Shown here piece after piece: positions 1,039 through 57,267 of a stretch of 57,348 nucleotides of DNA. The number at the start of each line of letters is the position of its first letter. Positions within the stretch are counted from its first letter, which is position 1. Under the pieces are notes generated by a model. The model was not told the origin of the DNA, did no database searches, and saw nothing but the letters and a program-made list of their open reading frames with translations. Position numbers and translations under genes: made by a program. This stretch comes from an uncultured Clostridia bacterium (lineage in GTDB: Bacteria > Bacillota > Clostridia > Christensenellales > CAG-138): positions 1 through 57,348 of the forward strand of contig CAMVMM010000015.1 of assembly GCA_947168565.1 (NCBI GenBank), in the 5' to 3' direction.

Positions 1039-1127
1039 CTTTTCCGGAAGCATTGTAGGCATAACGCATCCGCTCGGCGCTCCGTGCGAATGCTTTGCAA
1101 ATAAATCCAAAACAGGAGGAAAACCAA

Positions 1128-4100
1128 ATGAAAGTTTTTAAGAAGCTGGCGGCATTGACGCTGGCGGTACTGATGGCTGTTTCGGTGCTTCCGCTGGGTT
1201 CGGCGGCGAAAGCACTTGAAGCATATATCAGTGCAGAGGAAGATACGCCGCGCGTTGTTGATGATCCTGCGGTGCAGGCCGTTATCGATGCGATAGCCGC
1301 CTTGCCTGCACCCGCTGACATCACGCTTGAGCATGAGGAGCTTATCAACGGCGTTCAGGACATGTTTGCTGCGCTTACCGCGGAGCAGCAGGCACAGGTA
1401 TCGAATCACTTTATACTTGTTACCGCATTCGATGTTTTGGCTGCACGTCATGCTGAGCAGACGGTGAGCGATTATCTTGACGGCCTGGGTAATCCGATAG
1501 ATATTGACGCTACCGATGCGGTAAACGCTGCATACAACGTCTACCTTGCCCTTAGCGAAAGGCAGAAATCATTCTTCAATTCCGAGCTGCTTGAGCAGCT
1601 CGTATCGGCAAAGAATCAGATCGACGAAGGCTGGGCCGCGATTCATAATGTTGAATCCCTGATTGCAAATCTACCCAATCCTCCCAGTCCGGAGGACTTT
1701 GACGCCATTACTGCCGCACGAGATGCTTTCGAAAACTTGACAGAAGTTCAGCGGAACGAGATCTCTCCCGAAGCGCTGGCATACCTTGTTGCGCTTGAAG
1801 CAATGCGCGATGACATTATTGCCGCGCAGGATGTGATAGATTCAATAATCGAGCTTCCTTATGTAATTTATCCCACGGACGAGCCCGTTATTGAAGCTGC
1901 AAGAGCCGCTTACGAAGCGCTCACCGATGAGCAGAAGGCGCTTGTGACCAACTATGATTATCTGGTAGAGTCCGAGGCGGTCCTGGAAGTGGTTATGGGA
2001 ATTGATGCGGTTCTTGCCGAATACGAGCCCACCATCGCCAACCTTCCCTATTTCTATGATGCTCTTGCATCGTATGATGCTCTTGAGACCTATGTGAATA
2101 TCAACGGCGAAACAAAGGATGTTCGCGGCAGAGTCGGAAACTATCAGGAACTGAGAGATGTTATCGATGTGATAGAGGAAGATGAGGAGGAGGTTGACGA
2201 TCTTATCACCGAGATCGAGGTGATCCCCTATATCCTTCTTCCCGAGCATCAGTCCCTCGTTGAGGCCGCAAGAGCCGCCTACGATGCGATGAACGCAGAG
2301 CAGCAGGCGCTTGTGTCCAACTATGACTATCTCGTTGAGTCCGAGGCGGTCATGGAGGTCGTGCTCCTTATCGATGCTGTTCCCAAGCCCATCATGCCCG
2401 CGGATGAAGCTGCGATACTTGCTGCCCGTGCCGCTTACGATGAGCTGGATGCGCAGGTTCGCGTTGGCAACTATGAGCATCTTACCCTTGCGGAAGCGGC
2501 TCTGCCCGTTGTGCTTCATATTGATGCGCTTCCCGCTCCTTCGGATATCCTGCTTGAAAACACCGATCTTATAAACCAGGTTCAGGCCGAATATGATGCA
2601 CTTACTGCCGAAGAGAAGGAATATGTTGGCAATTACTCCGAGCTGCAGGCTGCTGTGGAAAGGATCAACGAGCTTTGGCAGCAGGTGAACGATGCGCTTG
2701 CGCTCCTTGAGCAGGTCTATGATAAGAGAAACGACCCTCTCTATCCTGAGGACAACGATCTGATAACTTCCGCGCGCGATGCGTTTAATGCGCTCAATAC
2801 CGATCAGCAGAGCTACATTGCCGCGAATTTCCCGCATCTTCTTGCGGAGCTTGAAAATGCCGAGGAGATCATGGTGGCCGTGCTTGCTGTGGACAGCATT
2901 CCCAAGCCCCTGATGCCTGAGGACGAGGCAGCATTGGATGCAGCGAATGCCGCTTACAATGCGCTCACTCCCGCGCAGCAGCAGAGGGTCGGCAATTATG
3001 AAAACCTTGAGGCTGCCAACGATGCTATGGTCGTTGTGCTCATGATCGCTGCGATCCCCAACGATCCAGTTATGATCGCCTATACCGAGCAGATAGAGGC
3101 GGCGCGCGAGGCATACGATGCGCTTTCCGACCTTGCCAAAGAATATGTTGGAAACTATAACGATCTTGTTGGCGCCGAGGGTGCGCTTGACGCGCTTTGG
3201 GATGCGATACAGCACGTTATAGATCTTATCGACGCGATTCCCTTCCCGCTCTACCTCCACGATGCTCCCGCTGTTGTGGAAGCTCGCGGCGCTTATGATG
3301 CGCTCACCCCCGAGCAGCAGCAGTATGTTTACAACTATTGGAAGCTCGTTTATGCAGAGCGCGATCTTGCAACGCTCTATGGTCAGGTTGCAATCGTTAT
3401 GACCTGCATCACCGCGCTGCCCACCCCTGTTACCCTTGATGACTATGATACCGTTGCCGCTATCCAGCGCGCCTACGATGCGCTCGATTCCGAGCAGCAG
3501 GCGGAGATCACCAATTATCCCAAGCTCCAGCAGGCCTGGGCGCAGCTTGAGGCTCTTATGGAGCAGATCGCGGCCGTTGAGGCTCTGATCGATGCTATAC
3601 CCAATCCCCTTACCGACGAGAATTACGATGAGTTTGCTGCTGCTGTTGCGGCTGCCCGCGAGGCATACGATGCGATCGCCAACCCTGCCGATGCCGCTCA
3701 TGTAAGCAACTACGATGAACTGCTCGCGGCGGAGGCTGCGCTCTATAACGAGGCACGCCTTGTTGAGCAAATGATCGATGCACTTCCCAACCCGGAGAAT
3801 ATTACTCTTGGAGATGCGGATCAGATCTCTGCGGCTCGTGAAGCTTATGACAATCTTGATGAAAGGCAGCAGGGGCACGTTGGCAACTACGACGACCTCG
3901 TTGCCGCTGAACAGGCGCTTGCCGCGCTGCTTCAGCAGATAATCGCGGTTGAGGAGCTTATTCTGGACATTCCATATCAGATCCATGCATCCGATGCGGC
4001 CCAGATCCAGCTTGCCCGCTCCCGTTATAATGCGCTCAGCGCAGAGCAGCAGGCGAGAGTCAGCAATTACGCCGAGCTTGAGATCGCGGAGGAGATTCTT

Positions 4101-4751
4101 GCGGTTGAAATGCTCATCGATGCCATTGGCATAGATAACAATGAAAACCTTGATCTTGTGGAGATCGAGGATAGGTTCAATGCCGCTCTTGATGCCTATA
4201 ATGCGCTTGATGACGAAGAGAAGGCGCGTGCGGCTGACGGCGAATGGCTGGAAGGTCTCGCGGTGTATTATGAGCAGTGCAATGGCTGGGATGACGGAGT
4301 TCCTTTCATTGATTGCATCATGAATGCGTTCGCTAACCCCAACAATGCAGAAATTGTAAATGCTGCGTATGCTGCGTTGTTCTCAAAGGGATATCTACAT
4401 TTCGGCGAACTGCAAGATAATCAGTCGGCGTATATAGTTTACTGTGTGCTTGCGGTATACAGGTATGATACATATTACATAGACTTTCTTGAAAACGAAG
4501 GTGACACGGGTAATGACAGAATGAATGTGCTGATGTACATTTCCTATCTGCATGCTAATTTGCCACCCGCTATCCCCGGCGACATCAATGGCGACGGCAT
4601 GATCACCGGCGCGGATGCGCTGCTTATCATGCGTATTGCGTTGGGCACTGAGCAGGCGCCGGCAAATGTAAATGCCGATTGCGACGGCAATGGCGTTGTA
4701 AACATTGCCGACAGCCTGCTGGCTCTCCGAATCAGCATGGGTATTGCCTGA
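1128..4751 (+). CDS. Secreted helical-repeat protein with C-terminal dockerin
   Basis: A 1,207-residue exported protein. A signal peptide covers about residues 1-30 (KKLA, hydrophobic core, then AKA). Residues about 42-1050 are a string of about 17 degenerate repeats of 50-65 residues, with the pattern 'IDAIPxP...AArxAYDALTxEQQxxVxNYxxLxxAE', predicted all-helical. About 100 residues without repeats follow, then a type-I-like dockerin: DINGDGMITGAD and DCDGNGVVNIAD calcium loops, each followed by a 'LxxxRIxxG' helix. The dockerin predicts non-covalent docking to a cohesin; the 12-module scaffold in this window is the obvious candidate partner. No catalytic domain is visible. ATG 1128 follows CAGGAGG. 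It precedes the Tad pilus operon by 111 bases on the same strand. Confidence 0.85.
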   Translation: MKVFKKLAALTLAVLMAVSVLPLGSAAKALEAYISAEEDTPRVVDDPAVQAVIDAIAALPAPADITLEHEELINGVQDMFAALTAEQQAQVSNHFILVTAFDVLAARHAEQTVSDYLDGLGNPIDIDATDAVNAAYNVYLALSERQKSFFNSELLEQLVSAKNQIDEGWAAIHNVESLIANLPNPPSPEDFDAITAARDAFENLTEVQRNEISPEALAYLVALEAMRDDIIAAQDVIDSIIELPYVIYPTDEPVIEAARAAYEALTDEQKALVTNYDYLVESEAVLEVVMGIDAVLAEYEPTIANLPYFYDALASYDALETYVNINGETKDVRGRVGNYQELRDVIDVIEEDEEEVDDLITEIEVIPYILLPEHQSLVEAARAAYDAMNAEQQALVSNYDYLVESEAVMEVVLLIDAVPKPIMPADEAAILAARAAYDELDAQVRVGNYEHLTLAEAALPVVLHIDALPAPSDILLENTDLINQVQAEYDALTAEEKEYVGNYSELQAAVERINELWQQVNDALALLEQVYDKRNDPLYPEDNDLITSARDAFNALNTDQQSYIAANFPHLLAELENAEEIMVAVLAVDSIPKPLMPEDEAALDAANAAYNALTPAQQQRVGNYENLEAANDAMVVVLMIAAIPNDPVMIAYTEQIEAAREAYDALSDLAKEYVGNYNDLVGAEGALDALWDAIQHVIDLIDAIPFPLYLHDAPAVVEARGAYDALTPEQQQYVYNYWKLVYAERDLATLYGQVAIVMTCITALPTPVTLDDYDTVAAIQRAYDALDSEQQAEITNYPKLQQAWAQLEALMEQIAAVEALIDAIPNPLTDENYDEFAAAVAAAREAYDAIANPADAAHVSNYDELLAAEAALYNEARLVEQMIDALPNPENITLGDADQISAAREAYDNLDERQQGHVGNYDDLVAAEQALAALLQQIIAVEELILDIPYQIHASDAAQIQLARSRYNALSAEQQARVSNYAELEIAEEILAVEMLIDAIGIDNNENLDLVEIEDRFNAALDAYNALDDEEKARAADGEWLEGLAVYYEQCNGWDDGVPFIDCIMNAFANPNNAEIVNAAYAALFSKGYLHFGELQDNQSAYIVYCVLAVYRYDTYYIDFLENEGDTGNDRMNVLMYISYLHANLPPAIPGDINGDGMITGADALLIMRIALGTEQAPANVNADCDGNGVVNIADSLLALRISMGIA
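1252..4275 (+). repeat. About 17 protein-level helical repeats
   Basis: Tandem repeats of 150-195 nt, diverged at DNA level but with a constant core: 'ARxAYDALT.EQQ..V.NY..L'. The best conserved copies lie in the middle and at the end (about 1880-3980). Copies 2, 3, 5 and 17 are degenerate. Similar helical repeats are common in large clostridial surface proteins, but I know no established function. Confidence 0.8.
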
Positions 4752-29481: not shown

Positions 29482-30537
29482 TTATCGAAACACGCCCATG
29501 GTTCTGCGCATTATAAGCAGCGCGTCTATGGAGTTTACCATTCCGTCGCCGTTCACATCCGCGCCCGCGCCGGACTGCATGGGCAGTATGCCCATGGATA
29601 TGCGCATCACCTTGAGCGCGTCCGCAAGGGTCACGCTGCCGTCGCCGTCCGCATCGCCGGGATATGCGCCGTAGCGGGAGAAGCGCGCCACAAAGCGCCT
29701 GCCCAGCTCCTCATCGGGGGTGAAAACCGTGTAATCGGTTATGAATCTGCCGTCCTCGGTATACCAGCCGTCGTAGGTGGTGCAGCCGTCCGCACAGTCC
29801 GCGCTGATGAAGAAAAGGTTTTCGTTGCTGTATTCGCTGTTTTGCGAAATGTAGCAGGAAACGAATTTGTTCCCGCCGTCCACCATGCGCAGAAAATCAA
29901 TGCCCAGCAGCGGATTCGCGGTCAGATCCAGCGTTTTCATGCGGTTGTCGGTGCAGATAAGCACGGAAAGCTCCGGGCAGGAGGAAAGCTCCAGATTAGG
30001 TATCTGATTCCATCTGCACTCCAAAAAGCGCAGCGCGGCGCAGCCGGAAACGCTGAAGGAGGCTATGGAGTTGGCGGCGCAGTTCACAAGATACAGCGCG
30101 GTGCAGCCGGAAAGATCGAGCCCCGTAAGCGCGTTGCCGTTGATCACAACGCTTTCAAGCGCGGTGCAGCCGGAAAGCTCGAGCGCGCCGCAAAGCCCGC
30201 CGCCGACTATGTTTGCCGCGCTGATGCTCTGAAGGCGCAGCTTGCCGCCCTGCTCCGTCCAGCGGAAGCGGGGCTCGCCGTTTGCCGCCGTGCCCCAGGT
30301 TTCGGGATCGAGCACGTCGTAGGAGGAGGAGAGCTTGCTGCCGTTCTTCCGGCCCGAGCCGTCCGTAATCTCAAGGAAGGCCGCAAGCTTTGCATAATCG
30401 CCCTCGTCGTATGCCTCAAGCCCTTTTGCGGGGGCTTCGGGCGCTGCCTCCATCATGCCGAGCGGCGCGATGAGGATGCCGAGCGCGAAAACGGCGGCAA
30501 GCAGCAGCGCGATGGGCTTGATTCGATTCTGTTTCAT
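29482..30537 (-). CDS. Secreted LRR-like protein with C-terminal dockerin
   Basis: A 351-residue exported protein. A signal peptide covers residues 1-32. Residues about 90-215 contain leucine-rich-like repeats of about 21 residues with a 'LDLSGCTALxxLxCxxN' pattern ('LTGLDLSGCTALYLVNCAAN'), as in the bacterial LRR type common in gut Clostridia. The C-terminal 60 residues form a dockerin: loops DADGDGSVTLAD and DVNGDGMVNSID, each followed by 'ALxxMRxxMG'. Residues 10-11 of the loops are LA and SI. No enzyme domain is present. It has its own strong promoter (30604-30632). A cohesin on the scaffold at 49233 is a possible docking site. Confidence 0.85.
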   Translation of the reverse strand: MKQNRIKPIALLLAAVFALGILIAPLGMMEAAPEAPAKGLEAYDEGDYAKLAAFLEITDGSGRKNGSKLSSSYDVLDPETWGTAANGEPRFRWTEQGGKLRLQSISAANIVGGGLCGALELSGCTALESVVINGNALTGLDLSGCTALYLVNCAANSIASFSVSGCAALRFLECRWNQIPNLELSSCPELSVLICTDNRMKTLDLTANPLLGIDFLRMVDGGNKFVSCYISQNSEYSNENLFFISADCADGCTTYDGWYTEDGRFITDYTVFTPDEELGRRFVARFSRYGAYPGDADGDGSVTLADALKVMRISMGILPMQSGAGADVNGDGMVNSIDALLIMRRTMGVFR

Positions 30538-42254: not shown

Positions 42255-43586
42255 ATGCAAAGGAAAAGAAACTTGATATATAAAAAAACTCTGCCGAACG
42301 GCCTGCGGGTCATCGGCGAAAAGCTGGAAAACTACCGCTCGGTTTCCATCGGCTGCTGGGTCGGGGCGGGCTCCATACTGGAAATGCACGCGCTTGAGAG
42401 CGGGGAGACCCTCGCCGCCGGCACGGAATGCGGCATCTCCCATTTCATAGAGCACATGCTCTTCAAGGGCACCGAAAAGCACTCCGCCGAGGAGCTTGCG
42501 GAGCTTATGGATCTGCTTGGCGGCAATATGAACGCCTTCACAAGCAAGGACTGCACCTGCTTCTATGCCAAGGTAACGGAGGACAGCGTGAGCGAGGCGC
42601 TGGAGCTTATTTCGGAGATAGTTTGCACCTCCAAGCTGGACGAAGCGGATATAGAGCGCGAAAAGGGCGTTGTGCTTGAGGAGATCGCCATGAATAACGA
42701 TACTCCGGAGGATCTTGTGCATGAAGCGCTCTGCACCCTCTATTACGGCAGCGATCCGCTCGCCTTTCCCGTGCTCGGCTCGGAGCAGAGCGTGAGCGCC
42801 CTCACAAGGAGCATGATCCGCTCATATATGGCGCGCACCTATCGGCCGGAGAATATAGTCATAGCGGCGGCGGGGAATCTGGATTTTGAAAGGCTCTGCA
42901 GCTGCGCTGAAAGGGCGTTTGATTTTTCCCTTATCGCCGACGGAGCGAGGGAGCCGGGCGCAAAGGCGGGAGCGGCGGGCGAAGCGGGGGAAGACAGCGA
43001 GCGCTTCAGGCTTATTGAAAAGGACGTGGAGCAAACGCATTTAGCGCTGGCGTTCCCGGGCTTTTCTTACGATTCGCCAAGCTATTATCCCATGCTTGTG
43101 CTTAATAATATCATTGGCGGCAGCGTCAGCTCCAGGCTGTTTCAAAGCATACGCGAGCGCAGCGGAATGGCGTATTCCGTGTATTCCGCGCCCTCGTCGT
43201 TTTCCACAAGCGGCTATTTCACCCTCTATGCCGGCACGGGCGAAAAGCAGGCGGCGAAGGTGCTTGAAATGATGCTCGATGAGTATGAAAGCCTGCTTCA
43301 AGGCGGCATCACCGAGGCGGAGCTTGAGCGCAGCAAGCGCCAGATACGCACGGGCTTCATTCTGGGCAGGGAGAATTCCTCCTCCCGCGCCTCCTCGCTC
43401 GGCAGGCGTGAGCTGCTCGGGCTTGCGCATCGCTCGGAGGATGAGATACTTTCGCTCATCGCCTCGGTCAGCCTTGACGACGTGCATTCCATCCTTCCCA
43501 CTATGTGCTCAAGGGAATCCATGAGGGCGGCGATAGTGGGCAGGCTTTCCCGGAGTGCGGAGGCGCTTAAAAGGCTGCTTCAATAA
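42255..43586 (+). CDS. M16-family zinc peptidase (MlpA/YmxG-like)
   Basis: A 443-residue inverzincin-type peptidase. The inverted zinc motif HFIEH lies at about residues 63-67, and the downstream helix with 'EKGVVLEEIAMNNDTPEDLVHEAL' supplies the third ligand. The second M16 domain has 'YPMLVLNNIIGGSVSSRLFQSIRE' and 'YSAPSSFSTSGYF', both family typical. ATG 42255 is used; a TTG at 42273 with AAAGGA before it is an alternative start. It forms a two-gene unit with the YlxY-like gene (26 bases between). Confidence 0.93.
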   Translation: MQRKRNLIYKKTLPNGLRVIGEKLENYRSVSIGCWVGAGSILEMHALESGETLAAGTECGISHFIEHMLFKGTEKHSAEELAELMDLLGGNMNAFTSKDCTCFYAKVTEDSVSEALELISEIVCTSKLDEADIEREKGVVLEEIAMNNDTPEDLVHEALCTLYYGSDPLAFPVLGSEQSVSALTRSMIRSYMARTYRPENIVIAAAGNLDFERLCSCAERAFDFSLIADGAREPGAKAGAAGEAGEDSERFRLIEKDVEQTHLALAFPGFSYDSPSYYPMLVLNNIIGGSVSSRLFQSIRERSGMAYSVYSAPSSFSTSGYFTLYAGTGEKQAAKVLEMMLDEYESLLQGGITEAELERSKRQIRTGFILGRENSSSRASSLGRRELLGLAHRSEDEILSLIASVSLDDVHSILPTMCSRESMRAAIVGRLSRSAEALKRLLQ

Positions 43587-48123: not shown

Positions 48124-48957
48124 ATGAACACTGAAAAAACCAAAACCGAGGCGGCAAAAAGCCGCGCAGAGGAAATAAAAAATGCCATCACGGGGATGGG
48201 GGAGACCACCCTGAGCGGCATCCTTGCTTCCGCACGCGCCTTTAAAGCGGGGCTTGGCGCGAATGCGTTGAACGATGCGGCCGAAGCCGGCGCCGCTTCG
48301 GGCGAAAGCCGAAGTGCGCCGTCAAGCCCGGAAGCGCAAAACCCGCGCGGCGAAGCGAATGCAAGGGCGGAAGGCGACGGCTTTGCCGTTGAAACGGTGG
48401 AGTACCGCGCGCCGGTTGTGATAAATATCGTGGAAGCGCCGCAGACCGATGCCGTGCGGCAGAGCGCTCAAAAGCAAAGCGGGCAGGCGCGGGCCGCTTC
48501 GGCGCGGAGCGCCTCCGGACTGCGCGGAAAGAGCCGCGCGGAGCAGATGGAGCTTATCAGAAGGCTGGCGGACGAGGCGGCGGAGGAGCTGCCCGCGCCA
48601 TTTTTTGAAAAGCTGAGCGGCGGCATCGCGCTGAGCGAGGCAAAAAAGCACCACCCCAAATCAAGGAGCGAGCGCCCGCTTCTGGTGCTTGGCGAATACA
48701 GAAACGACCCGCGCTTCGGCAGAAGCATCATGCTTTACGGCGGCTCCATCATAGAAACCTTCCCGCGGCTCAGCGAGAGTGCGCTCAAGGCCGAGATACG
48801 CAGAATCGTGCGCCATGAATTTACCCATCATATAGAATCGCTCTGCGGCGAAAGAGGGCTTGAAATAGAGGATGAGATAAGCCTTGCGCAGTATGAGCTG
48901 GGCTTTTCGGGCAAAAACGGCTCCCACGACGGCGGCGGCGATCCGGATTCGAGATGA
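48124..48957 (+). CDS. Zincin-type metallopeptidase with long N-terminal extension
   Basis: A 277-residue protein. Residues about 140-265 form a small metallopeptidase domain with 'RHEFTHHIESLCGERGLEIEDEI', zinc motif HEFTH at about 230-234. It matches the short (about 120-residue) clostridial family: 'LADEAAEELPAPFFEKLSGGI' and 'VLGEYRNDPRFGRSIMLYGGS'. The first 140 residues are a low-complexity Ala/Ser/Arg-rich extension not normal for the family. The start is ATG 48124, directly after the octamer repeats and without a clear ribosome-binding site; the true start may be downstream. Confidence 0.82.
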   Translation: MNTEKTKTEAAKSRAEEIKNAITGMGETTLSGILASARAFKAGLGANALNDAAEAGAASGESRSAPSSPEAQNPRGEANARAEGDGFAVETVEYRAPVVINIVEAPQTDAVRQSAQKQSGQARAASARSASGLRGKSRAEQMELIRRLADEAAEELPAPFFEKLSGGIALSEAKKHHPKSRSERPLLVLGEYRNDPRFGRSIMLYGGSIIETFPRLSESALKAEIRRIVRHEFTHHIESLCGERGLEIEDEISLAQYELGFSGKNGSHDGGGDPDSR

Positions 48958-49232: not shown

Positions 49233-52200
49233 ATGAAAAGATTTCTTGCAGCACTGCTTGCGGTAATGTTGACGTTTTCACTCGTCTCCATTCCCGTCCG
49301 AGCAGAGGGCGAGGTAGTCTTCACGGTCCCGACCATACAGGCCGAACCCGGTGATACGGTGGACGTTACCGTTATGATCGACTGTGCAGACCATGAAATG
49401 CATGTATTGAATTCGTACCTGCAGTTCGACCCGGAAGCCCTGACCGTGAATTCGATAACTCCGGGCAGCGGCATGAGCGCCAACGGCGGATTCGTTCTTC
49501 CCGATTTTGCCAGCGAGTCCGGCAAAGCCAAGATCGGTGCGATGTATCCCACCACCGGCTTCACCGGCAGCGGCGTTCTTATGACCGTGAACTTCACCGT
49601 CAGCGATGATGCCGCCGGCAGCATCCCGCTCACCATGGTCGTCACGGAGATCCGCAACTATCCCGTTGGCGGTACCGCCGTCGATCTGCCCTACGTCGCA
49701 AATGACGGCGCGGTCGTGGTTGCGGGTGCCGATCCCACGCAGGCTCCTGCCACCGATGCGCCCGCAGCGGATTTCAACGCTGCGGCGAACATTGAGGGCG
49801 GCGAACTTGTTTTTGACAATAACGTTTCCGATTATCCCTGGGAAGTCGTTACCGAAAGGGACGGCAGGACCTACGTCCGCAGCACCAACCAGGGCCAGCG
49901 CAGCACCGATTCCACGTTTGCTCTCACCGTAAACGCCGCCGAAGGCGACGTGCTCAATTTTGAGTATCAGGCATGGGGCGAGGTCAGCTCCTACAGCGGC
50001 AACGTGTGGGACGGTCTCCGCGTTGCGATCGACGGCGATTATGCAGACAGGTACTGGGGAAATGCTCAGCAGTGGACTCCCTTCTCCCTTGAGCTTCCCG
50101 CAGGCGAGCACACCGTCACCTTCACCTTCCATAAGGACAGCAGCACCGATGGCACCGGCGACTTTGCCGCCATCGACAACGTTGAGTACGTGCCCGCGGC
50201 CGATCAGCCCACGCCCGTGCCCGCAACTCCCGCACCCGGCACCGCCACCTTCGTGGTCGAGCCCGACTATCAGCAGATAGAGGCGGGTGACACCTTCGAG
50301 CTCACCGTCAGCGTGGACGGCGATTTCGAGGCGCACATGCTCAACTTCCAGCTCAATTACGACGACTCTGTCTTCGAGTTCGTTTCCGCTCAGAACGGCG
50401 CGGTCCTCAATTCGGCCGCTCAGCTTGAAGGCATGGTCGTGCTTGACGGCACCACCATCCCCGGCAGCGTGCGCCTCGGCGTGCTCATGCCCATCGAGCC
50501 CATGACCGAGACCGGCGAGCTGTTCACCGTCACCTTCAGGGCGAAGGACAATGCCGAGGTCGGCGTTTACGACTTCACCCCCGTTGTGACCACCTTCTCG
50601 AACGCGCCTCTTGACGGCAACAACAACCCCGTTGAGACCCCCATCGAGAACACCGCGACCGGCGCTCAGGTGGAGATCGCTGCTCCCGTTACCGAGCCTC
50701 CCGTAACCGAGCCTCCCGTAACCGAGCCCCCCGAGACCGAGATTCCCGTTACCGCGCCTCCCAGCGAAGTTCTTATCTTCGTGAATCCCGAGGAGCAGGA
50801 TGCTCAGCCCGGCGACACCATCACCTTTAACGTTAAGCTTCTTGCGGTGATCGGCGAGTTTGAAGCACACACCTTCAATCTCCAGCTCAACTACGATTCC
50901 GATATCTTCACCGTTACGAACGTTGAGTTCGGCGAGGTTTGCGACCAGATCCTTGCTCTTGAGGGCTTCCCGGTCTGCGATTATGAAACCATACCCGGCT
51001 CCATCCGCTTCGGCGCTCTGATGCCCACCGAGGGCTTCACTGCCGACGGCACCATCTTCACCGTTACCGCGGTGGTGAGCGACAATGCTCCCGTTGGAGA
51101 TTATGACCTCACTCCGCTCACCGTTGAGTTCGATCATGCTCCCGTAGGCGAGGAGCCCACTCCCATCGAGCATCTGGACGTGCCCGGTGTCGTTCACATC
51201 ACCGAGCCTCCGGTAACCCCCGTTCCCGGCACCGCGATGTTCTATGTGGAGCCCGATTACACCCTCACCGAGGCGGGCGAGCTCGTTTCCGTTGATATCA
51301 TGGTCAGCGGCGACTACGAGGCGCACGCGCTCAACCTCTGGGTGGATTACGACAGCGACAACTTCGAGTTCGTTTCCTGCGAGTCCGGCGACGTGCTTGC
51401 GGACGCGGTTGACAACGGCGGCACCTTCGTTCTTGACGGCGAGACCATCCTCGGCTCCGTGCGCCTCGGCGTGCTCATGCCCCAGGATCCCATGACCGGC
51501 GAAGGCACCCTGTACACCCTTACCCTCAGGGCCAAGGAAACCGCTCAGCCCGGCGTCTACCCCGTTGGCATCGAGGCGATCGAGTTCATCAACTATCCCG
51601 CGATCGACGGCGTTGAGACCCCCATCGAGCATGAGGACATCCCCGGCGAGATCGAGATCACCGTTCCCGTGACTCCGACTCCCGAGCCTGTTACTCCGAC
51701 TCCCGAGCCTGTGACCCCCACTCCCGAGCCTGTGACCCCCACTCCCGAGCCCATAACTCCTGTTCCCGGCGAGGTCACCATCTATGTCGATCCCCAGCAT
51801 ACCGAGATCGAGCATAACGACGAGTTCACCTTCGATGTTAAGATAATGGGCGAGTACGAGGCTCACGCGGTGAACCTCCAGCTCAACTATGACAGCAACT
51901 ACTTCGAGTTTGTTTCCGCCGCCAACGGCGATGTCGTGATCGACGCTCTTGCGGACGATGCGGCGGTCGTGCTGGACGGCAGCACCATTCCCGGCAGCGT
52001 GCGCCTCGGCGTGCTCATGCCCGATTATCCCATGACCGGCGAAGGCACCCTCTTCAGCGTGACCCTCCGTGAGAAGGGCAACGCTCAGGAGAACGTTCCT
52101 TATCCGCTCACTCCCGTTTGCATCGAGCTGGTGAACTACCCCGTTGAAGGCGAGTCCACCCCCATCGAGCATACCGAGATCCCCGGCGACGTTGAGATAA

Positions 52201-55200
52201 TCGTTACCGAAACCCCGACTCCCGAGCCGGTCACCCCGACTCCCGAGCCCCCGACCCCCACTCCGGTTCCCGTAACCGAGCCGCCTATCCCGACTCCGGT
52301 TCCCGGCACCGCCGTGTTCAAGGTACTTCCCGAGACTCAGAACGCCATGCCCGGCGACACCATCACCTTCGACGTAACCCTTGAAGGCGAGTTCGAGGCC
52401 CACGTTCTCAATCTCCAGCTCAACTACGATCCCAACGTATTCGAGATCCTGTCCACCGCCCGCGGCGAGGTTATCAACCAGATCATCGACCTCGGCGGCA
52501 CCCAGATCCTCGATCATACCACCGTCCCCGGCAGCATCCGTCTCGGCGCTATGATGCCGACCGCAGGCTTCGATGCAAACGGCGTTATCTTCACCGTTAC
52601 CGCCCGCATCAAGGATGCCAAGGATCCCGCTCCCGAGGGCTACCATGAGCTGACCCCCGTTGTTACCGAGTTCACCAACTATCCCATTGGCGGTGAAAAC
52701 ACCCCGATCGAGCATACCGACATCCCCGGCTACGTGTACGTCGGCAGCATCGTGACCCCCAGCCCCGTTCCGGTAACTCCGGCTCCCGGCGAGGTCACCA
52801 TCTACGTCGATCCCCAGCATACTCAGATCGATCATAACGACGAGTTCGTGTTCGCCGTTAAGATCATGGGCGAGTACGAGGCTCACGGCATGAACCTCCA
52901 GCTCAACTTCGACAGCGAGCACTTCGAGTTCGTCAACGCCATTAACGGCGACGTTATCATCGCGGCCCTCAACAACGGTGCGACCGTTGTGGCGGACGGC
53001 GACACCGTTCCCGGCAGCATCCGCCTCGGCGTGCTCATGCCCGAGGAGCCCATGACCGGCGAGGGCACTCTGCTCAACATCACCCTCCGCGAGAAGGGCA
53101 CCGCCGCTGAGAACGTGCCTTACCCGCTCACCCCCGTGTGCGTTGATCTCGTGAACTACCCGATCGATGGCGTATCCACTCCCATCGAGCACACCGAAAT
53201 TCCCGGCGACGTTACCATAATCCCCGGCAGCACGCCGATGAACGCTGTGTTCTACGTTCTGCCCAACTACACTGTTGTGAATGCGGGCGAGACCTTCACC
53301 GTTGACGTTAAGGTCGACGGCAGCTTCGAGGCGCACGGTCTGAACCATCAGTTCAACTACGACGCCAACAACTTCGAGTTCGTATCCGTTGCCGAGGCCG
53401 AGGTAATCGAGCATATCACCTCCCTGAACGGCACCTACGTGCTTGACGGCACCACCATCCCCGGCAGCGTACGCCTCGGCGTGCTCATGCCCGAGGAAGG
53501 CTTCACCATGACCGGCACGTTCTACAGCGTGACCCTCAGGGCGAAGACCACCGCCGCCGTTGGCGTTTACGATCTCGGTCTTGTTGTGGACAGCTTCGTG
53601 AACTATCCTCTTGAGGGCGAGTCCGAGGACATCTTCAACTACGTGATCCCCGGTGAGGTTGAGATCATCAACGACGTCACCCCCACCCCCATCGTAACCG
53701 TTCCCCCGCAGCCCACTCCGGTGCCCGGCATGGCGAACTTCATCGTCGACGCCGAGCCCAACTACCTTGAGCCCGGTCAGGAGTTCCAGGTATCCGTGCG
53801 CATCGAGGGTGAATACGGCGAGGCCCATACCCTCAACCATCAGCTCAACTACGATGCGAACGTATTCGAGTTCGTATCCTATGAGCGCGGCCCCGTTGCG
53901 ATGCAAATCATCGACCTCGGCGGCACCCAGATCATCGACGGCACCACCATCCCCGGCAGCGTTCGCTACGGCGTGATGATGCCCACCGATGGCTTCACCG
54001 AGCAGGGCATCTTCTACACCGCCACCTTCCGCGTGAAGGACAGCGCGCAGAACGGCACCTATCCCTTCGATCAGGTTGTTTCCGAGTTTGCGAACTTCCC
54101 GCTTGGCGGCGTTGAGACCCCCATCGAGCATAACATCATCAACGACAACGTCGTTATCACCACCCCCGACGTGACCCCCACTCCCGCTCCGATAACCCCC
54201 GAACCCGGCGTGGTGTTCATCTACGCGGAGCCCGACCCCGATGTAGTCGTTCCCGGTCAGGAATTCGTTGTGAACGTTCGCATCGAGGGCGAGTACGAGG
54301 CTCACGGCATGAACCTCCAGCTCAACTACGACACGGAGAACTTCGAGTTCATCCATGCCGAGGAGATCGGAAACGTTCTCGTTGACGCTCTTGACAAGAA
54401 CGCCACCATCCTTCTCGACGGCGACACCGTTCCCGGCAGCGTGCGCCTCGGCGTGCTCATGCCCGATGAGCCCATGGATCAGGAGGGCATCCTGTTCACC
54501 GCACACTTCCGTGCAAAGGAGACCGCGCCCGTTGGCGAATATCCCTTCACCCCCGTGGCGGTCGATCTTGTGAACTTCCCCATCGGCGGCGTATCCACTC
54601 CGATCGAGCATTACGACTTTGAGGGCTACGTCGAGATCCTCCCCGGCGATACCGTGATCTTCCGCGCTATCCCCGATCCCACCGAGCTCATCCCCGAGCA
54701 GATCTTCACCGTTCAGGCAACCGTTCAGAACCCCTACGAGGCTCACGGCCTGAACTTCCAGCTCAACTACGATGCGAACACCTTCGAGGTCGTCAGCATC
54801 GCGGACGGCACCGTGGTCAACCAGGCAAGGCAGCTTGGCGGCACCGTCGTTCTTGACGGCGAAACCGTTCCCGGCAGCATCCGTCTCGGTATCCTCATGC
54901 CGCAGGAGGCGCTCACCGCCGAAGGCGACATGTTCACCGTAACCTTCCGCGTGAAGGCTTCCGCTCAGACCGGCGATTACGACTTCGTGCCCAATGCGGT
55001 CGAATTCGTAAACTACCCGCTCGACGGCGTTTCCACCCCGATCCCGCACGTTGACATTCCCGGCACCGTACATATCGGCGAAACCGAGGGCGTCATCTTC
55101 CGTGCGATCCCGGATCCCACCGTTGTGGAGCCCGGCGACACCTTCACCGTTGACGTAACCGTTGAGAATCCCTATGAGGCTCACGGTCTGAATCTCCAGC

Positions 55201-55997
55201 TCAACTACAACCCCGCTTACTTCGAGTTCGTATCCGCTGTGAACGGCGCAGTTCTTGCAGATGCGATCGCAAACGGCGGCACCGTTGTGCTTGAGGGCAG
55301 CCAGATCCCCGGCAGCGTACGCCTCGGCGTGCTCATGCCCACCGATCCCATGGATCAGGAGGGCGTGCTGTACACCGCAACCTTCCGCGTGAAGGACGGC
55401 GCACCGGTCGGCATCTATGACTTCACTCCTGTGGCAGTCGATTTCGTCAACTTCCCGCTTGGCGGAGTTTCCACTCCCATCGAGCACGTTGACATCCCCG
55501 GTCAGGTCGAGATCATCGGCGGCGTAACCCCGACTCCCGAGCCTCCCACCCCGACTCCCGAGCCTCCCACTCCGACTCCCGAGCCGCCTACTCCGACTCC
55601 CGAGCCGCCCACTCCGACTCCCGAGCCGCCTACCCCGACTCCCGAGCCGCCCACCCCGACTCCTGTGCCTCCCACCGAGCCTCCGGTAGAGCCCACTCCG
55701 GTGCCTCCCACTGAGCCTCCGGTAGAGCCCACCGAGCCTCCGGTAGAGCCCACTGAGCCTCCGGTTGAGCCCACCGAGCCTCCGGTTGAGCCCACCGAAC
55801 CTCCGGTAGAGCCCACTGAGCCTCCGGTTGAGCCCACCGAACCTCCGGTAGAGCCCACTGAGCCTCCCGTGGAGCCCACTCCCGAGCCCACCACCCCGCC
55901 CGCACCTCCCACCGGCACCATTGCGCTGGTTGGCGTTGGTATCGCGGCGCTGGTAGCCGGCGCAGGCATCATCCTCTTCAGGAGGAAGGAAGACTGA
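49233..55997 (+). CDS. Giant scaffoldin-like protein with 12 cohesin-like modules
   Basis: A 2,254-residue exported protein. A signal peptide covers residues 1-24 (ends VRAEG). Twelve modules of about 140-145 residues follow the cohesin pattern: 'PGDTxxVxV', 'LQLNYDxxxFEFVS', 'PGSVRLGVLMP', 'GxLFTVTFRxKxxAxxGxY'. Module 1 is the most divergent and is followed by one beta-sandwich domain of another type (about 178-322). Pro/Thr/Glu linkers join modules. A long linker then precedes 'PPTG', a hydrophobic helix and RRKED, a sortase-like wall signal. In the family cohesins bind dockerins with high affinity in the presence of calcium. No enzyme or carbohydrate-binding module is present. Three dockerin genes lie in this window. 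RBS GGAAGGAG; C-ending codons dominate, suggesting strong expression. Confidence 0.82.
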   Translation: MKRFLAALLAVMLTFSLVSIPVRAEGEVVFTVPTIQAEPGDTVDVTVMIDCADHEMHVLNSYLQFDPEALTVNSITPGSGMSANGGFVLPDFASESGKAKIGAMYPTTGFTGSGVLMTVNFTVSDDAAGSIPLTMVVTEIRNYPVGGTAVDLPYVANDGAVVVAGADPTQAPATDAPAADFNAAANIEGGELVFDNNVSDYPWEVVTERDGRTYVRSTNQGQRSTDSTFALTVNAAEGDVLNFEYQAWGEVSSYSGNVWDGLRVAIDGDYADRYWGNAQQWTPFSLELPAGEHTVTFTFHKDSSTDGTGDFAAIDNVEYVPAADQPTPVPATPAPGTATFVVEPDYQQIEAGDTFELTVSVDGDFEAHMLNFQLNYDDSVFEFVSAQNGAVLNSAAQLEGMVVLDGTTIPGSVRLGVLMPIEPMTETGELFTVTFRAKDNAEVGVYDFTPVVTTFSNAPLDGNNNPVETPIENTATGAQVEIAAPVTEPPVTEPPVTEPPETEIPVTAPPSEVLIFVNPEEQDAQPGDTITFNVKLLAVIGEFEAHTFNLQLNYDSDIFTVTNVEFGEVCDQILALEGFPVCDYETIPGSIRFGALMPTEGFTADGTIFTVTAVVSDNAPVGDYDLTPLTVEFDHAPVGEEPTPIEHLDVPGVVHITEPPVTPVPGTAMFYVEPDYTLTEAGELVSVDIMVSGDYEAHALNLWVDYDSDNFEFVSCESGDVLADAVDNGGTFVLDGETILGSVRLGVLMPQDPMTGEGTLYTLTLRAKETAQPGVYPVGIEAIEFINYPAIDGVETPIEHEDIPGEIEITVPVTPTPEPVTPTPEPVTPTPEPVTPTPEPITPVPGEVTIYVDPQHTEIEHNDEFTFDVKIMGEYEAHAVNLQLNYDSNYFEFVSAANGDVVIDALADDAAVVLDGSTIPGSVRLGVLMPDYPMTGEGTLFSVTLREKGNAQENVPYPLTPVCIELVNYPVEGESTPIEHTEIPGDVEIIVTETPTPEPVTPTPEPPTPTPVPVTEPPIPTPVPGTAVFKVLPETQNAMPGDTITFDVTLEGEFEAHVLNLQLNYDPNVFEILSTARGEVINQIIDLGGTQILDHTTVPGSIRLGAMMPTAGFDANGVIFTVTARIKDAKDPAPEGYHELTPVVTEFTNYPIGGENTPIEHTDIPGYVYVGSIVTPSPVPVTPAPGEVTIYVDPQHTQIDHNDEFVFAVKIMGEYEAHGMNLQLNFDSEHFEFVNAINGDVIIAALNNGATVVADGDTVPGSIRLGVLMPEEPMTGEGTLLNITLREKGTAAENVPYPLTPVCVDLVNYPIDGVSTPIEHTEIPGDVTIIPGSTPMNAVFYVLPNYTVVNAGETFTVDVKVDGSFEAHGLNHQFNYDANNFEFVSVAEAEVIEHITSLNGTYVLDGTTIPGSVRLGVLMPEEGFTMTGTFYSVTLRAKTTAAVGVYDLGLVVDSFVNYPLEGESEDIFNYVIPGEVEIINDVTPTPIVTVPPQPTPVPGMANFIVDAEPNYLEPGQEFQVSVRIEGEYGEAHTLNHQLNYDANVFEFVSYERGPVAMQIIDLGGTQIIDGTTIPGSVRYGVMMPTDGFTEQGIFYTATFRVKDSAQNGTYPFDQVVSEFANFPLGGVETPIEHNIINDNVVITTPDVTPTPAPITPEPGVVFIYAEPDPDVVVPGQEFVVNVRIEGEYEAHGMNLQLNYDTENFEFIHAEEIGNVLVDALDKNATILLDGDTVPGSVRLGVLMPDEPMDQEGILFTAHFRAKETAPVGEYPFTPVAVDLVNFPIGGVSTPIEHYDFEGYVEILPGDTVIFRAIPDPTELIPEQIFTVQATVQNPYEAHGLNFQLNYDANTFEVVSIADGTVVNQARQLGGTVVLDGETVPGSIRLGILMPQEALTAEGDMFTVTFRVKASAQTGDYDFVPNAVEFVNYPLDGVSTPIPHVDIPGTVHIGETEGVIFRAIPDPTVVEPGDTFTVDVTVENPYEAHGLNLQLNYNPAYFEFVSAVNGAVLADAIANGGTVVLEGSQIPGSVRLGVLMPTDPMDQEGVLYTATFRVKDGAPVGIYDFTPVAVDFVNFPLGGVSTPIEHVDIPGQVEIIGGVTPTPEPPTPTPEPPTPTPEPPTPTPEPPTPTPEPPTPTPEPPTPTPVPPTEPPVEPTPVPPTEPPVEPTEPPVEPTEPPVEPTEPPVEPTEPPVEPTEPPVEPTEPPVEPTEPPVEPTPEPTTPPAPPTGTIALVGVGIAALVAGAGIILFRRKED
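49311..55523 (+). repeat. Twelve cohesin-like modules
   Basis: Approximate module spans: 1, 49311-49727; 2, 50241-50679; 3, 50766-51200; 4, 51231-51665; 5, 51771-52205; 6, 52308-52754; 7, 52791-53228; 8, 53244-53675; 9, 53730-54164; 10, 54210-54647; 11, 54648-55085; 12, 55086-55523. Modules 2-12 share the motif EAHxxNxxxNYD and PGS[VI]R. Modules 10, 11 and 12 follow each other with no linker. Modules 5 and 7 are closest relatives, as are 11 and 12, pointing to tandem duplication. Confidence 0.85.
49765..50199 (+). other. Beta-sandwich domain inserted between modules 1 and 2
   Basis: Residues about 178-322 of the scaffold differ from the cohesin-like modules. Signature parts are 'LNFEYQAWGEVSSYSGNVWDGLRVAIDG', 'PFSLELPAGEHTVTFTFHKD' and 'DFAAIDNVEYVP'. 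This resembles the MAM/laminin-G-like or choice-of-anchor beta-sandwiches of secreted bacterial proteins. It might bind a ligand or host glycan, but no binding residues can be assigned. Confidence 0.6.
55524..55905 (+). repeat. Long Pro/Thr/Glu linker with short repeats
   Basis: First part: 'TPTPEPP' units (21 bp), about eight copies. Second part: 'TEPPVEP' units (21 bp), about ten copies. Together they span about 125 residues between the last cohesin-like module and the wall signal, long enough to cross a thick wall layer. Both unit lengths are multiples of three, so length may vary without frame loss. Confidence 0.9.
55908..55994 (+). other. C-terminal wall-sorting-like signal
   Basis: The protein ends with PPTG, then GTIALVGVGIAALVAGAGII, then LFRRKED. 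This matches the order of a sortase signal: short motif with TG, membrane span, basic tail. The motif is PPTG rather than LPxTG, so a non-classical sortase or simple membrane anchoring is possible. No sortase gene is in the window. Confidence 0.65.
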
Positions 55998-56042
55998 TCT
56001 TGTAGGCGGAAATAATATCCAAAATTCCGCTGAGTAACAAAA

Positions 56043-56078
56043 CAAGGCCCCCGCCTGATACGCGGGGGTCTTGTCTAT
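56043..56078 (+). terminator. Terminator of the scaffold gene
   Basis: A 12-bp stem (56043-56054 with 56062-56073, one G-U pair) with seven consecutive GC pairs closes a 7-base loop and is followed by TCTATTACTT. It lies 46 bases behind the stop codon. The strong stem makes this the best terminator in the window. Confidence 0.75.
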
Positions 56079-56112
56079 TACTTCGATAACTCTCTAATAT
56101 ATCAAAAAACTA

Positions 56113-56142
56113 TTGAAAAGAATAAATAAATCATGATAGAAT
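56113..56142 (+). promoter_or_regulatory. Promoter of the propeller-dockerin gene
   Basis: TTGAAA (56113-56118) and TAGAAT (56137-56142) are 18 bases apart. TGA before the -10 box forms an extended -10. It starts a leader of about 90 nt before ATG 56239. The separate promoter shows that scaffold and dockerin gene are distinct units. Confidence 0.55.
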
Positions 56143-56238
56143 AGCGAGGCAGTCGATTGAATTGCGGTTCCGCGTGCTTTCGAAGGGCGGCGTTTGAGCC
56201 CCGGTTCTTCGCTGTAATAATCTAAGGAGCTTTCAATA

Positions 56239-57267
56239 ATGAAAACACTCAAAAAGGCATTCTCCATTCTGCTCGTATGTTCGCTTCTTTTGACGGCGAT
56301 CCCTGCGTTTGCGGAAAGCACGCTTCCCGAAAAGGGCGGAGTTATGTTCGGCGGCTATGCCGTGCACGATTTTGCCGAGAACGACTACAATAAGTTCATC
56401 ACCTTCTCCGGCGATCAGCCCGGCCAGATCGAGGTGCAGTCCTTCTGCCTCACCACCTATGCCGCTGCCTACTACAACGGCGTGGTTTACGGCTATCTCT
56501 ACGGCTACGATCAGGAAGGCACACTTCACGATGAGTTTTACACCATGAATACCCTCACCGGCTATATGATCGACTTCCCCGGCGGAAACGCGGGCGGCGA
56601 ATTCGTTTATGCCATGGCATACAACTATGCGGATGATACCATGTATGCCCTCTGCGATGAGGATCATCCGTATATCGCATCCGTTGATCTTGCCACCGGC
56701 GAGCTTACCCGCTTTGTGGATATCAACCTCGGCAGCTTCCTCGGCCTTCGCGGTATGGCTATCAATGCGGACGGCGTGTTCTATCTGCTCACCATGTCCG
56801 CTGTGAACTCCCGCCTTCTCACCCTCAATATGGAAACCGGCGCACTCACCGAGATCGGCGCCACCGGCAAGCCCGCCTACTACGCGCAGTCCATGACCTG
56901 CGATCCTGCCACCGGCAGGCTCTACTGGGCGCAGCTCGAAACCTACACCAACAACGGTCTTTTTGAGATCGATCCCGCCACCGCGGCATGCACCTCCATG
57001 GGTAAGATCGGCGTTGAGGGCATGGAGATCACCGGCCTCTACGTTGTGTTCGATCAGGATGAGCCCGATTACCTTCTTGGCGATATAAACGATAACGGCG
57101 AGATCGATATGCAGGATGCGCTCATGGCGCTGCGTGCCTCCATGCAGCTTGTCGAGCTTACCGAGCGTCAGACCCTTGCCGGCGACGTGAATCTTGACGG
57201 CAGCGTCACCACCACGGATGCGCTCAGGATCATGCGCCTTGTGATGGGCCTTATCGACGAGCTTTGA
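56239..57267 (+). CDS. Secreted propeller-like protein with C-terminal dockerin
   Basis: A 342-residue exported protein. A signal peptide covers residues 1-25 (ends AFAES). Residues about 35-270 contain repeated 'Y.MN..TG...' and 'D..TGELTRF', 'NMETGALTEIG', 'DPATGRLYWAQ', 'IDPATAACTSMG' units, a beta-propeller-like pattern. The C-terminal 65 residues form a dockerin with loops DINDNGEIDMQD and DVNLDGSVTTTD and following helices. Loop positions 10-11 are MQ and TT. It lies 241 bases behind the scaffold, the nearest possible binding partner. No catalytic residues are seen. GGAGC precedes the ATG. Confidence 0.85.
   Translation: MKTLKKAFSILLVCSLLLTAIPAFAESTLPEKGGVMFGGYAVHDFAENDYNKFITFSGDQPGQIEVQSFCLTTYAAAYYNGVVYGYLYGYDQEGTLHDEFYTMNTLTGYMIDFPGGNAGGEFVYAMAYNYADDTMYALCDEDHPYIASVDLATGELTRFVDINLGSFLGLRGMAINADGVFYLLTMSAVNSRLLTLNMETGALTEIGATGKPAYYAQSMTCDPATGRLYWAQLETYTNNGLFEIDPATAACTSMGKIGVEGMEITGLYVVFDQDEPDYLLGDINDNGEIDMQDALMALRASMQLVELTERQTLAGDVNLDGSVTTTDALRIMRLVMGLIDEL

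Follow-up and report, generated by a model that had tools for sequence, protein, structure and literature searches.

The window analysed here, a 57,348-nt stretch of contig CAMVMM010000015.1 (assembly GCA_947168565.1) from an uncultured Clostridia bacterium, carries near its end a gene for a large scaffoldin, D43 (49233-55997, forward strand), whose ORF and Pfam matches give a protein of 2,254 aa with 12 cohesins. Behind it lies a gene for a secreted dockerin protein, D44 (56239..57267, forward strand; 342 aa). Both belong to a genome-wide set of six cohesin and 64 dockerin open reading frames (ORFs). The dockerin proteins carry peptidases, redoxins and adhesion-type domains and no recognisable sugar enzyme, which suggests, at the level of sequence, that the plan of the cellulosome has been re-used for handling proteins.

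The scaffoldin and its dockerin neighbour

D43 begins with a signal peptide, placed approximately at residues 1-24 (49233..49304) by reading the translation; a home-made heuristic recognises a signal-like N-terminus in 65 of the 69 cohesin or dockerin ORFs of the genome. In agreement with the initial annotation, which had described an exported protein of this length with 12 cohesin-like modules, the cohesin profile PF00963 matches D43 in 12 stretches (hmmscan; E 2.6e-97 for the whole protein and 322.9 bits, the curated cut-off being 24.1). A genome-level scan lists 11 of them. Cohesin 1 (49308..49730), supported by Pfam, the genome scan and the module alignment, is divergent, with 24-37% identity to the other modules. 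Pfam, the genome scan and the module comparison together delimit cohesins 2 (50241..50663), 3 (50775..51197), 4 (51231..51653), 6 (52308..52730), 8 (53241..53663), 9 (53733..54155), 10 (54210..54632), 11 (54651..55073) and 12 (55089..55511), all on the forward strand like the rest of the gene. Cohesin 5 (51771..52193), 74% identical to cohesin 7, falls below the single-place cut-off of the genome scan, and cohesin 7 (52791..53213) is counted by Pfam, missing from that scan as a single place and located by motif. The pairwise identities among the 12 modules range from 24 to 74%, cohesin 1 being the outlier, which argues that most of them do not stem from a recent tandem expansion.

When the 12 modules are compared with solved structures as one profile, the best matches are 1g1k, 2vn5 and 1aoh (E 2e-5 to 2e-4), with other cohesins scoring more weakly; a single module gives no match at E<=0.01. 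The three structures are type I cohesins of classical cellulosomes, and the D43 modules are assigned to type I through these closest solved relatives. In a tree of 23 different modules (24 rows, with module 8 entered twice and module 7 absent), the bootstrap of which is not settled, cohesin 1 lies on a long branch near the single-cohesin anchors, and the cohesins of the adaptor D08 stand apart from all others.

Behind the last cohesin, a Pro/Thr/Glu-rich repeat linker read off the translation (55512..55904) presumably crosses the cell wall. The protein then ends in a PPTG motif, a hydrophobic stretch and RRKED (55905..55994; ...PPTGTIALVGVGIAALVAGAGIILFRRKED). This end, already remarked upon in the initial annotation, resembles a sorting signal with a PPTG variant in place of the canonical LPXTG. 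Five congener scaffoldins share it in nearly identical form, and the genome has four sortase genes. The scaffoldin yields no carbohydrate-binding module (CBM), CBM3 included, in Pfam at E<=1. As had also been noted, neither an enzyme domain nor a CBM is found by Pfam in any of the four window proteins of the system, namely D43 and D44 (E<=1) and the dockerin proteins D41 and D42 (E<=0.01).

D44, correctly recognised at the outset as a secreted dockerin protein right behind the scaffoldin, consists of a signal peptide, a propeller-like region with DUF6923 and DUF4394 matches, both below cut-off, and a C-terminal type I dockerin (residues 280-334, 57076..57240, forward strand; Pfam Dockerin_1, E 4.3e-9) with two intact calcium loops. 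This dockerin matches the solved xylanase dockerins 2ccl_B and 1ohz_B, of type I and from classical cellulosomes, and slightly more weakly 8x39 and 8x3a, which are named 'Serine protease' and probably represent dDoc_0689 of C. thermocellum. A terminator-like hairpin of 13 pairs (56042..56074, forward strand; hairpin scan) separates the two genes and makes their co-transcription doubtful. It has the longest stem of the 13 terminator-like sites in the region, for which shuffled sequences give a mean of 8.9.

Cohesins and dockerins across the genome

In the genome (2.36 Mb in 54 contigs; completeness 91.7%, contamination 0.5%), six ORFs account for the 23 cohesin places listed; 22 of these places are over the cut-off, one of the 22 only together with its neighbours. 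Several cohesins are present in four of the ORFs, D43 (12), D33 (five or more), D49 (three) and D08 (two), and D17 and D60 have one each. Four of the six have an anchor-like end, hydrophobic and basic, as seen in D17 and D60; in D49, which combines its cohesins with a DUF2436 and a Cleaved_Adhesin domain, the C-terminal end is almost that of D43. D08 (L079:3473-7252, contig C3) is an adaptor with two cohesins, two dockerins and two C-type lectin stretches. The ends of contigs C10 (L076) and C8 (L092) share one repeat stretch, within the cohesin ORF D33 and the dockerin ORF D25, respectively; the assembly probably broke at this repeat, and the D33 scaffoldin is therefore likely to be incomplete.

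The dockerin scan returned 67 places, of which one was dropped as a 35-codon open frame with an internal stop; the other 66 lie in 64 ORFs. The curated cut-off is not reached by three ORFs (D07, D29 and D64), and two others (D02 and D19) exceed it only with neighbours. The two duplicated calcium loops of a type I dockerin (PF00404) are present in 62 of the 66 places, and the remaining four, one of which overlaps another place, have one loop.

Cargo of the dockerin proteins

Pfam was run on each of the 64 dockerin ORFs at E<=0.01 (D44 at E<=1). A catalytic glycoside hydrolase, polysaccharide lyase or carbohydrate esterase family was found in none of them, in a scan that left 14 of the 64 unnamed and was run without a positive-control genome; nor were mucin glycosidases or amylases found. 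On this cargo an ordinary cellulosome, in which dockerin proteins would mostly be glycosidases, is rejected, and the initial assignment to a cohesin-dockerin system of another kind stands. Profile comparison shows both the cohesin-dockerin identity of the system and the absence of recognisable sugar enzymes from its dockerin proteins.

The most clearly defined enzymes are subtilases. Peptidase_S8 is found in D01, D28, D36, D45, D58 and D59 (Pfam, E 8e-37 to 6e-43), with the catalytic motifs DTG, HGTHV and GTSM(A/S) intact in all six, and these dockerin ORFs contain every one of the six S8 places found in the genome. A HEYQH motif is shared by D07, D12, D24 and D37; three of these also give a match to a putative metalloprotease model, with a score far under the cut-off. 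WCGPC redoxins are present in D09, D10, D11, D29 and D63, and D18 is redoxin-like with the first active-site Cys replaced by Ser. The initial description of a system without visible enzymes is therefore not upheld beyond the window: the enzymes sit elsewhere in the genome, and two of the six docked subtilases are encoded directly behind a single-cohesin anchor gene.

Adhesion-type domains are more numerous. Cleaved_Adhesin or DUF2436 occurs in 12 dockerin ORFs, two of which also have S8, and leucine-rich repeats in 11, six of them over the LRR_4 cut-off. The other named cargo comprises VWA in D23 (below cut-off in D46), CHAP in D03, CAP in D04, CotH in D32, GLUG in D65 and the lectin adaptor D08, and the carbohydrate-binding family Cthe_2159 has a strong match in D67 and another, under its cut-off, in D61. 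D00, D22, D30, D44 and D52 have only A3 (described below), Big_2 or propeller-like regions. No nameable domain was found in D06, D14, D19, D25, D27, D31, D39, D40 (Big_2 only), D41, D47, D48, D61, D62 and D64, of which D25 and D62 are truncated by contig ends. NCBIfam, applied to 20 poorly annotated dockerin proteins including 12 of these 14, yielded no further enzyme apart from the hint of a metalloprotease.

Several matches with sugar-related names were considered and rejected as sugar enzymes. The NCBIfam CelK matches do not reach beyond the dockerin stretch, and LRR_EndoS is a repeat domain. CBM_35_2 in D59 (E 0.007) and HL_N-beta, the hyaluronate lyase N-terminal domain, in D30 (E 0.0021) are below cut-off and non-catalytic; HL_N-beta, here over the cut-off, and CHB_HEX_C_1 in congener proteins are both non-catalytic as well. 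Two GH13 genes (three listed places) lie outside the dockerin ORFs, GH13 being the sole glycosidase family sought genome-wide.

In the congener G001, the 52 listed dockerin places (E<=0.001) fall into 52 ORFs. The Pfam tally (E<=1e-6; 25 of 36 families) gives LRR_4 in 13, Cleaved_Adhesin in seven, S8 in six, DUF2436 in six, CotH in two, RCC1 in two, and CHAP and Redoxin in one each. No glycosidase appears in those 25 of 36 families or in the 11 of 52 dockerin ORFs viewed singly, with single ones possible elsewhere. Six of the seven S8 places of G001 are in dockerin ORFs, and the seventh (C43) is without a dockerin at E<=0.001. S8 places are also listed for the other nine congeners.

The unnamed cargo bears on the possibility of a disguised, mucinolysome-like complex directed at glycans, in which new carbohydrate-active enzymes would make up the unnamed proteins and the peptidases would trim the glycoprotein core. 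Besides the 14 unnamed ORFs, five more have only domains of unknown function, and the Cthe_2159 and C-type lectin matches, together with the sub-threshold or non-catalytic sugar-named ones (CBM_35_2 in D59; HL_N-beta in D30 and, over the cut-off, in a congener protein), would fit such a complex. The Limousia mucinolysome, for its part, has dockerin peptidases beside its glycosidases (PMC12997984). However, mucinolysomes, amylosomes and cellulosomes known so far have recognisable glycosidases, and no catalytic sugar-enzyme family was recognised in the 64 dockerin ORFs or within the scope covered in G001, which makes a glycan-targeting complex improbable.

The A3 domain

After cohesin 1, the scaffoldin carries an undescribed domain of about 145 aa, here termed A3 (D43 residues 178-332; 49764..50228, forward strand), which was recognised by protein comparison and a profile and has no Pfam match even at E<=1. 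The initial annotation had missed it, and the scaffoldin is accordingly more than cohesins alone. Among the cohesin and dockerin proteins compared, 39 copies are spread over 16 proteins of the genome, namely the scaffoldin plus 15 with a dockerin, and a further 16 of G001, and a profile built from these copies added one own protein and three congener proteins. The carriers include, besides D43, three of the six docked subtilases (D01, D45 and D59), one of the four metallopeptidase-like proteins (D12), the CotH protein D32 and other dockerin proteins. Five congener scaffoldins likewise have A3 after cohesin 1, with a second copy in one of them, and 33 of the 103 family genomes contain the domain. 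Such an occurrence on both the scaffold and the enzymes would be expected of a shared substrate-binding module, and A3 may function as one.

A relationship of A3 to Cleaved_Adhesin (PF07675) was rejected, as hhalign gives a probability of 0.5% against seven Cleaved_Adhesin domains of the same genome. The cohesin profile matches A3 merely over 21 columns at 16%. Against solved structures the matches are marginal only, with the best to the endosome/lysosome-associated regulator 1 (E 0.007), followed by the VesC serine protease (0.015) and an agarase module (0.12), and were not used.

Gene neighbourhoods and conservation

The single-cohesin anchor D60 and the subtilases D59 and D58 are encoded consecutively, 77 and 260 bp apart, and an anchor-S8-S8 trio of this kind is also found in the congener G006, where it was looked for. 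This arrangement bears on an alternative in which the complex would organise the cell surface: the cohesins would display adhesins for attachment or biofilm formation, and the few peptidases would mature, prune or release surface proteins. The predominance of adhesion domains over peptidases, with leucine-rich repeats in 11 ORFs (six over the cut-off) and Cleaved_Adhesin/DUF2436 in 12, is in line with such a complex, and so are LRR_4 in 13 of the 52 dockerin ORFs of G001, long stalk-like proteins such as D41, and the processing or nitrogen-recycling role proposed for cellulosomal S8 proteases (PMC12484212). On the other hand, all six S8 places are docked, two of them in a unit with its own anchor that recurs in G006, and ten peptidase-like and five redoxin proteins exceed the obvious needs of pruning. 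We consider such a surface-organising complex rather unlikely. The initial suggestion of adhesion or display rather than digestion holds in part: the abundant leucine-rich repeats, Cleaved_Adhesin/DUF2436 domains and C-type lectin stretches agree with its first half, whereas the six S8, four HEYQH and five WCGPC proteins, CHAP and CotH speak against the second.

A second single-cohesin anchor, D17, adjoins the redoxin-like D18 (L084:6458-7435) with a gap of 82 bp. An anchor and redoxin-like pair is found in seven of ten congeners, G001, G003, G005, G006, G007, G008 and G009 (loci L192, L195, L196, L197, L199, L201 and L204); in the stretches fetched from G002, G004 and G010, other cohesin ORFs are present without the pair. 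With the own genome included, this very conserved pair occurs in eight genomes of the genus, the own D18 copy having Ser for the first Cys. The scaffoldin D49 is preceded by five dockerin genes, D54-D50 (L082/L083; contig C22:6484-23360), which share A3, Big_2, propeller-like and partly Cleaved_Adhesin/DUF2436 domains; they look like a tandem-duplicated cargo cluster.

The scaffoldin-D44 pair of the window is kept in five of the ten congeners, G004, G005, G006, G007 and G010, whose scaffoldins vary in length and have 4, 10, 11, 4 and 10 cohesins, respectively, by the window-module profile. In G001, G002 and G003 a scaffoldin-like ORF runs off the contig, and the stretches fetched from G008 and G009 have no such pair. 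All 11 genus genomes examined have cohesins and dockerins, with 9 to 77 dockerin places each (E<=1e-4).

In the family, 80 of the 103 genomes, and 21 of the 26 genera, have cohesins, often with just 1-4 per genome. This pattern could be expected of a remnant, that is, an ancestral cellulosome that has lost its sugar enzymes and is now drifting. Yet the scaffoldin frames are open over 1,444-2,254 aa in six genus genomes, the own included, with conserved anchor ends, the calcium loops and catalytic motifs are intact, and the gene pairs are conserved; a remnant, already disfavoured, is thus highly improbable. The scaffoldin modules have named relatives at 10 loci, which belong to metagenome-assembled genomes from sheep omasum, goat abomasum and elsewhere, labelled Clostridia, Clostridiales, Bacillota or Christensenella; this suggests that the window organism is a ruminant-gut member of Clostridia.

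Comparison with known systems

Classical cellulosomes, such as those with the scaffoldins CipA of Acetivibrio thermocellus and CipC of Ruminiclostridium cellulolyticum and type I pairs, share with the present system the closest solved cohesins (1g1k, 2vn5 and 1aoh) and dockerins (2ccl and 1ohz) and a multi-cohesin scaffoldin that also carries a non-cohesin domain. In contrast to them, no dockerin-borne carbohydrate-active enzyme and no CBM3 were found here, and the main scaffoldin has a wall-sorting-like end. A CBM3 on the primary scaffoldin is usual in cellulosomes, with exceptions (PMC11557425).

Peptidases and leucine-rich repeats on dockerins are already known as minor cargo elsewhere. Ruminococcus flavefaciens FD-1 has many dockerin proteins, peptidases and leucine-rich-repeat proteins being minor cargo among them (PMC2930009, PMC5301203), and sortase-type anchoring (PMC11557425). 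Its 222 dockerin proteins, however, include many glycosidases, lyases, 22 esterase modules and 63 CBMs next to 16 peptidase modules, and no such sugar enzymes were found in our 64 ORFs. The mucinolysome of Limousia, also from a gut Bacillota, has five scaffoldins, an LPxTG anchor and six dockerin peptidases, but is built on mucin glycosidases (PMC12997984), none of which were found here. In Candidatus Stygibacter, two peptidases bear dockerins, one of them S8 and the other a gingipain-like C25, next to a large scaffoldin; this organism belongs to the Cloacimonadota, however, its scaffoldin carries CBM2/CBM3, GH18 and GH57 are present, and four enzymes and one other dockerin protein are named in the source (PMC8542988). 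The double dockerin dDoc_0689 of C. thermocellum similarly puts a subtilisin-like protease on a scaffoldin, although as an accessory protein of a cellulosome and not as the main enzyme class of the complex (PMC12484212). Lachnoclostridium sp. MSJ-17 has 39 dockerin proteins with one dockerin-borne lignocellulose enzyme only, but its largest scaffoldin has two cohesins (PMC11557425).

Subtilases with a dockerin or with Cleaved_Adhesin were noted in a 2008 survey, which knows the latter domain from gingipain-type proteins of Porphyromonas (PMC2605481), and dockerins of cockroach-gut Christensenellales have been described with low transcription (PMC10266427). The Hungate1000 study sorted rumen Clostridiales by their dockerin and cohesin counts, with high numbers of both taken as truly cellulosomal (PMC6118326). 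A survey of 305,693 genomes counted as cellulosome bacteria those with a multi-cohesin protein and a dockerin glycosidase, at least one of each, and found that the number of dockerins tracks that of dockerin-borne lignocellulose glycosidases with an R2 of 0.81 (PMC11557425). The present system, which combines 64 dockerin ORFs with a 12-cohesin scaffoldin but has no recognisable sugar enzyme among its dockerin proteins, breaks this correlation and would escape glycosidase-based searches. Among the matches listed in a literature search by titles and abstract starts, with subscription literature sparsely covered, none described a cohesin-dockerin system that lacks dockerin sugar enzymes and carries such cargo.

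Proposed mode of action

On balance we lean towards a wall-anchored complex of several scaffoldins that would hold and cut protein-rich material, following the cellulosome plan without its sugar enzymes. Assembly, wall location, protein binding and cutting are inferred from the cargo, its selective routing and the conserved gene order. In such a model, the scaffoldins would leave the cell and be attached to the wall by sortase, and the exported dockerin proteins would plug into the cohesins with calcium. The adhesin, leucine-rich, lectin and A3 domains would then bind the substrate, with A3 on the scaffoldin replacing the classical cellulose-binding module. The WCGPC proteins would open disulfides, the peptidases would cut, and the peptides would be taken up. 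Feed protein, mucin or another host glycoprotein, and other microbes are candidate substrates.

A more specific version, which is possible and put forward tentatively, is that of an extracellular 'proteolysome', with protein breakdown as its enzymatic job. Essentially all subtilases of the cell, together with the metallopeptidases and the disulfide-active thioredoxins, would be gathered on sortase-anchored scaffoldins, A3, as a new family of substrate-binding domain on scaffoldin and enzymes alike, would take the role of CBM3, and the plan would be kept across a ruminant-gut genus.

A number of points weigh against complexes devoted to protein. The peptidases, six S8 and four putative ones, are a minority of the 64 cargo proteins, and the evidence for the metallopeptidases consists of a motif and of profile matches under the threshold. 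Since adhesion-type cargo is commoner, the proteases might merely process surface proteins, as has been proposed for cellulosomal ones (PMC12484212). The 14 unnamed and five poorly defined cargo proteins could hide new carbohydrate-active enzymes, and the Cthe_2159 match of D67 and the C-type lectins of D08 indicate that sugars may be bound. Finally, the GH13 genes may be intracellular, so that their undocked position supports a protein-directed complex weakly.

If the protein-holding and -cutting complex is real, the cohesin-dockerin plan would be a general route to surface enzyme complexes, and the present system would be a candidate for a protein-degrading machine of the ruminant gut, with relevance to the nitrogen loss of livestock. 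It would also provide new cohesin-dockerin pairs and, with A3, a new domain family, and the role of non-cellulosomal dockerins would become a directly testable question.

Other features of the window

The two further dockerin proteins that the initial annotation had placed in the window are D41 and D42, each with two calcium loops in a C-terminal dockerin. D41 (1095..4751, forward strand; 1,218 aa) has an N-terminal signal and a long run of alike, helical-looking repeats; it gives no Pfam, NCBIfam or PDB match beyond its dockerin and may be a stalk. D42 (29482..30537, reverse strand; 351 aa) has leucine-rich repeats below the cut-off. A 2,255-aa open frame on the reverse strand (49278-56045) spans nearly the whole scaffoldin gene; most likely it results from codon bias and repeats and is not a gene. 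Immediately upstream of the scaffoldin lies a gene for a small protein with a HEFTHH motif (48124-48957, forward strand), and farther upstream one for an M16-like peptidase (42255-43586, forward strand), both named by reading of their sequences.

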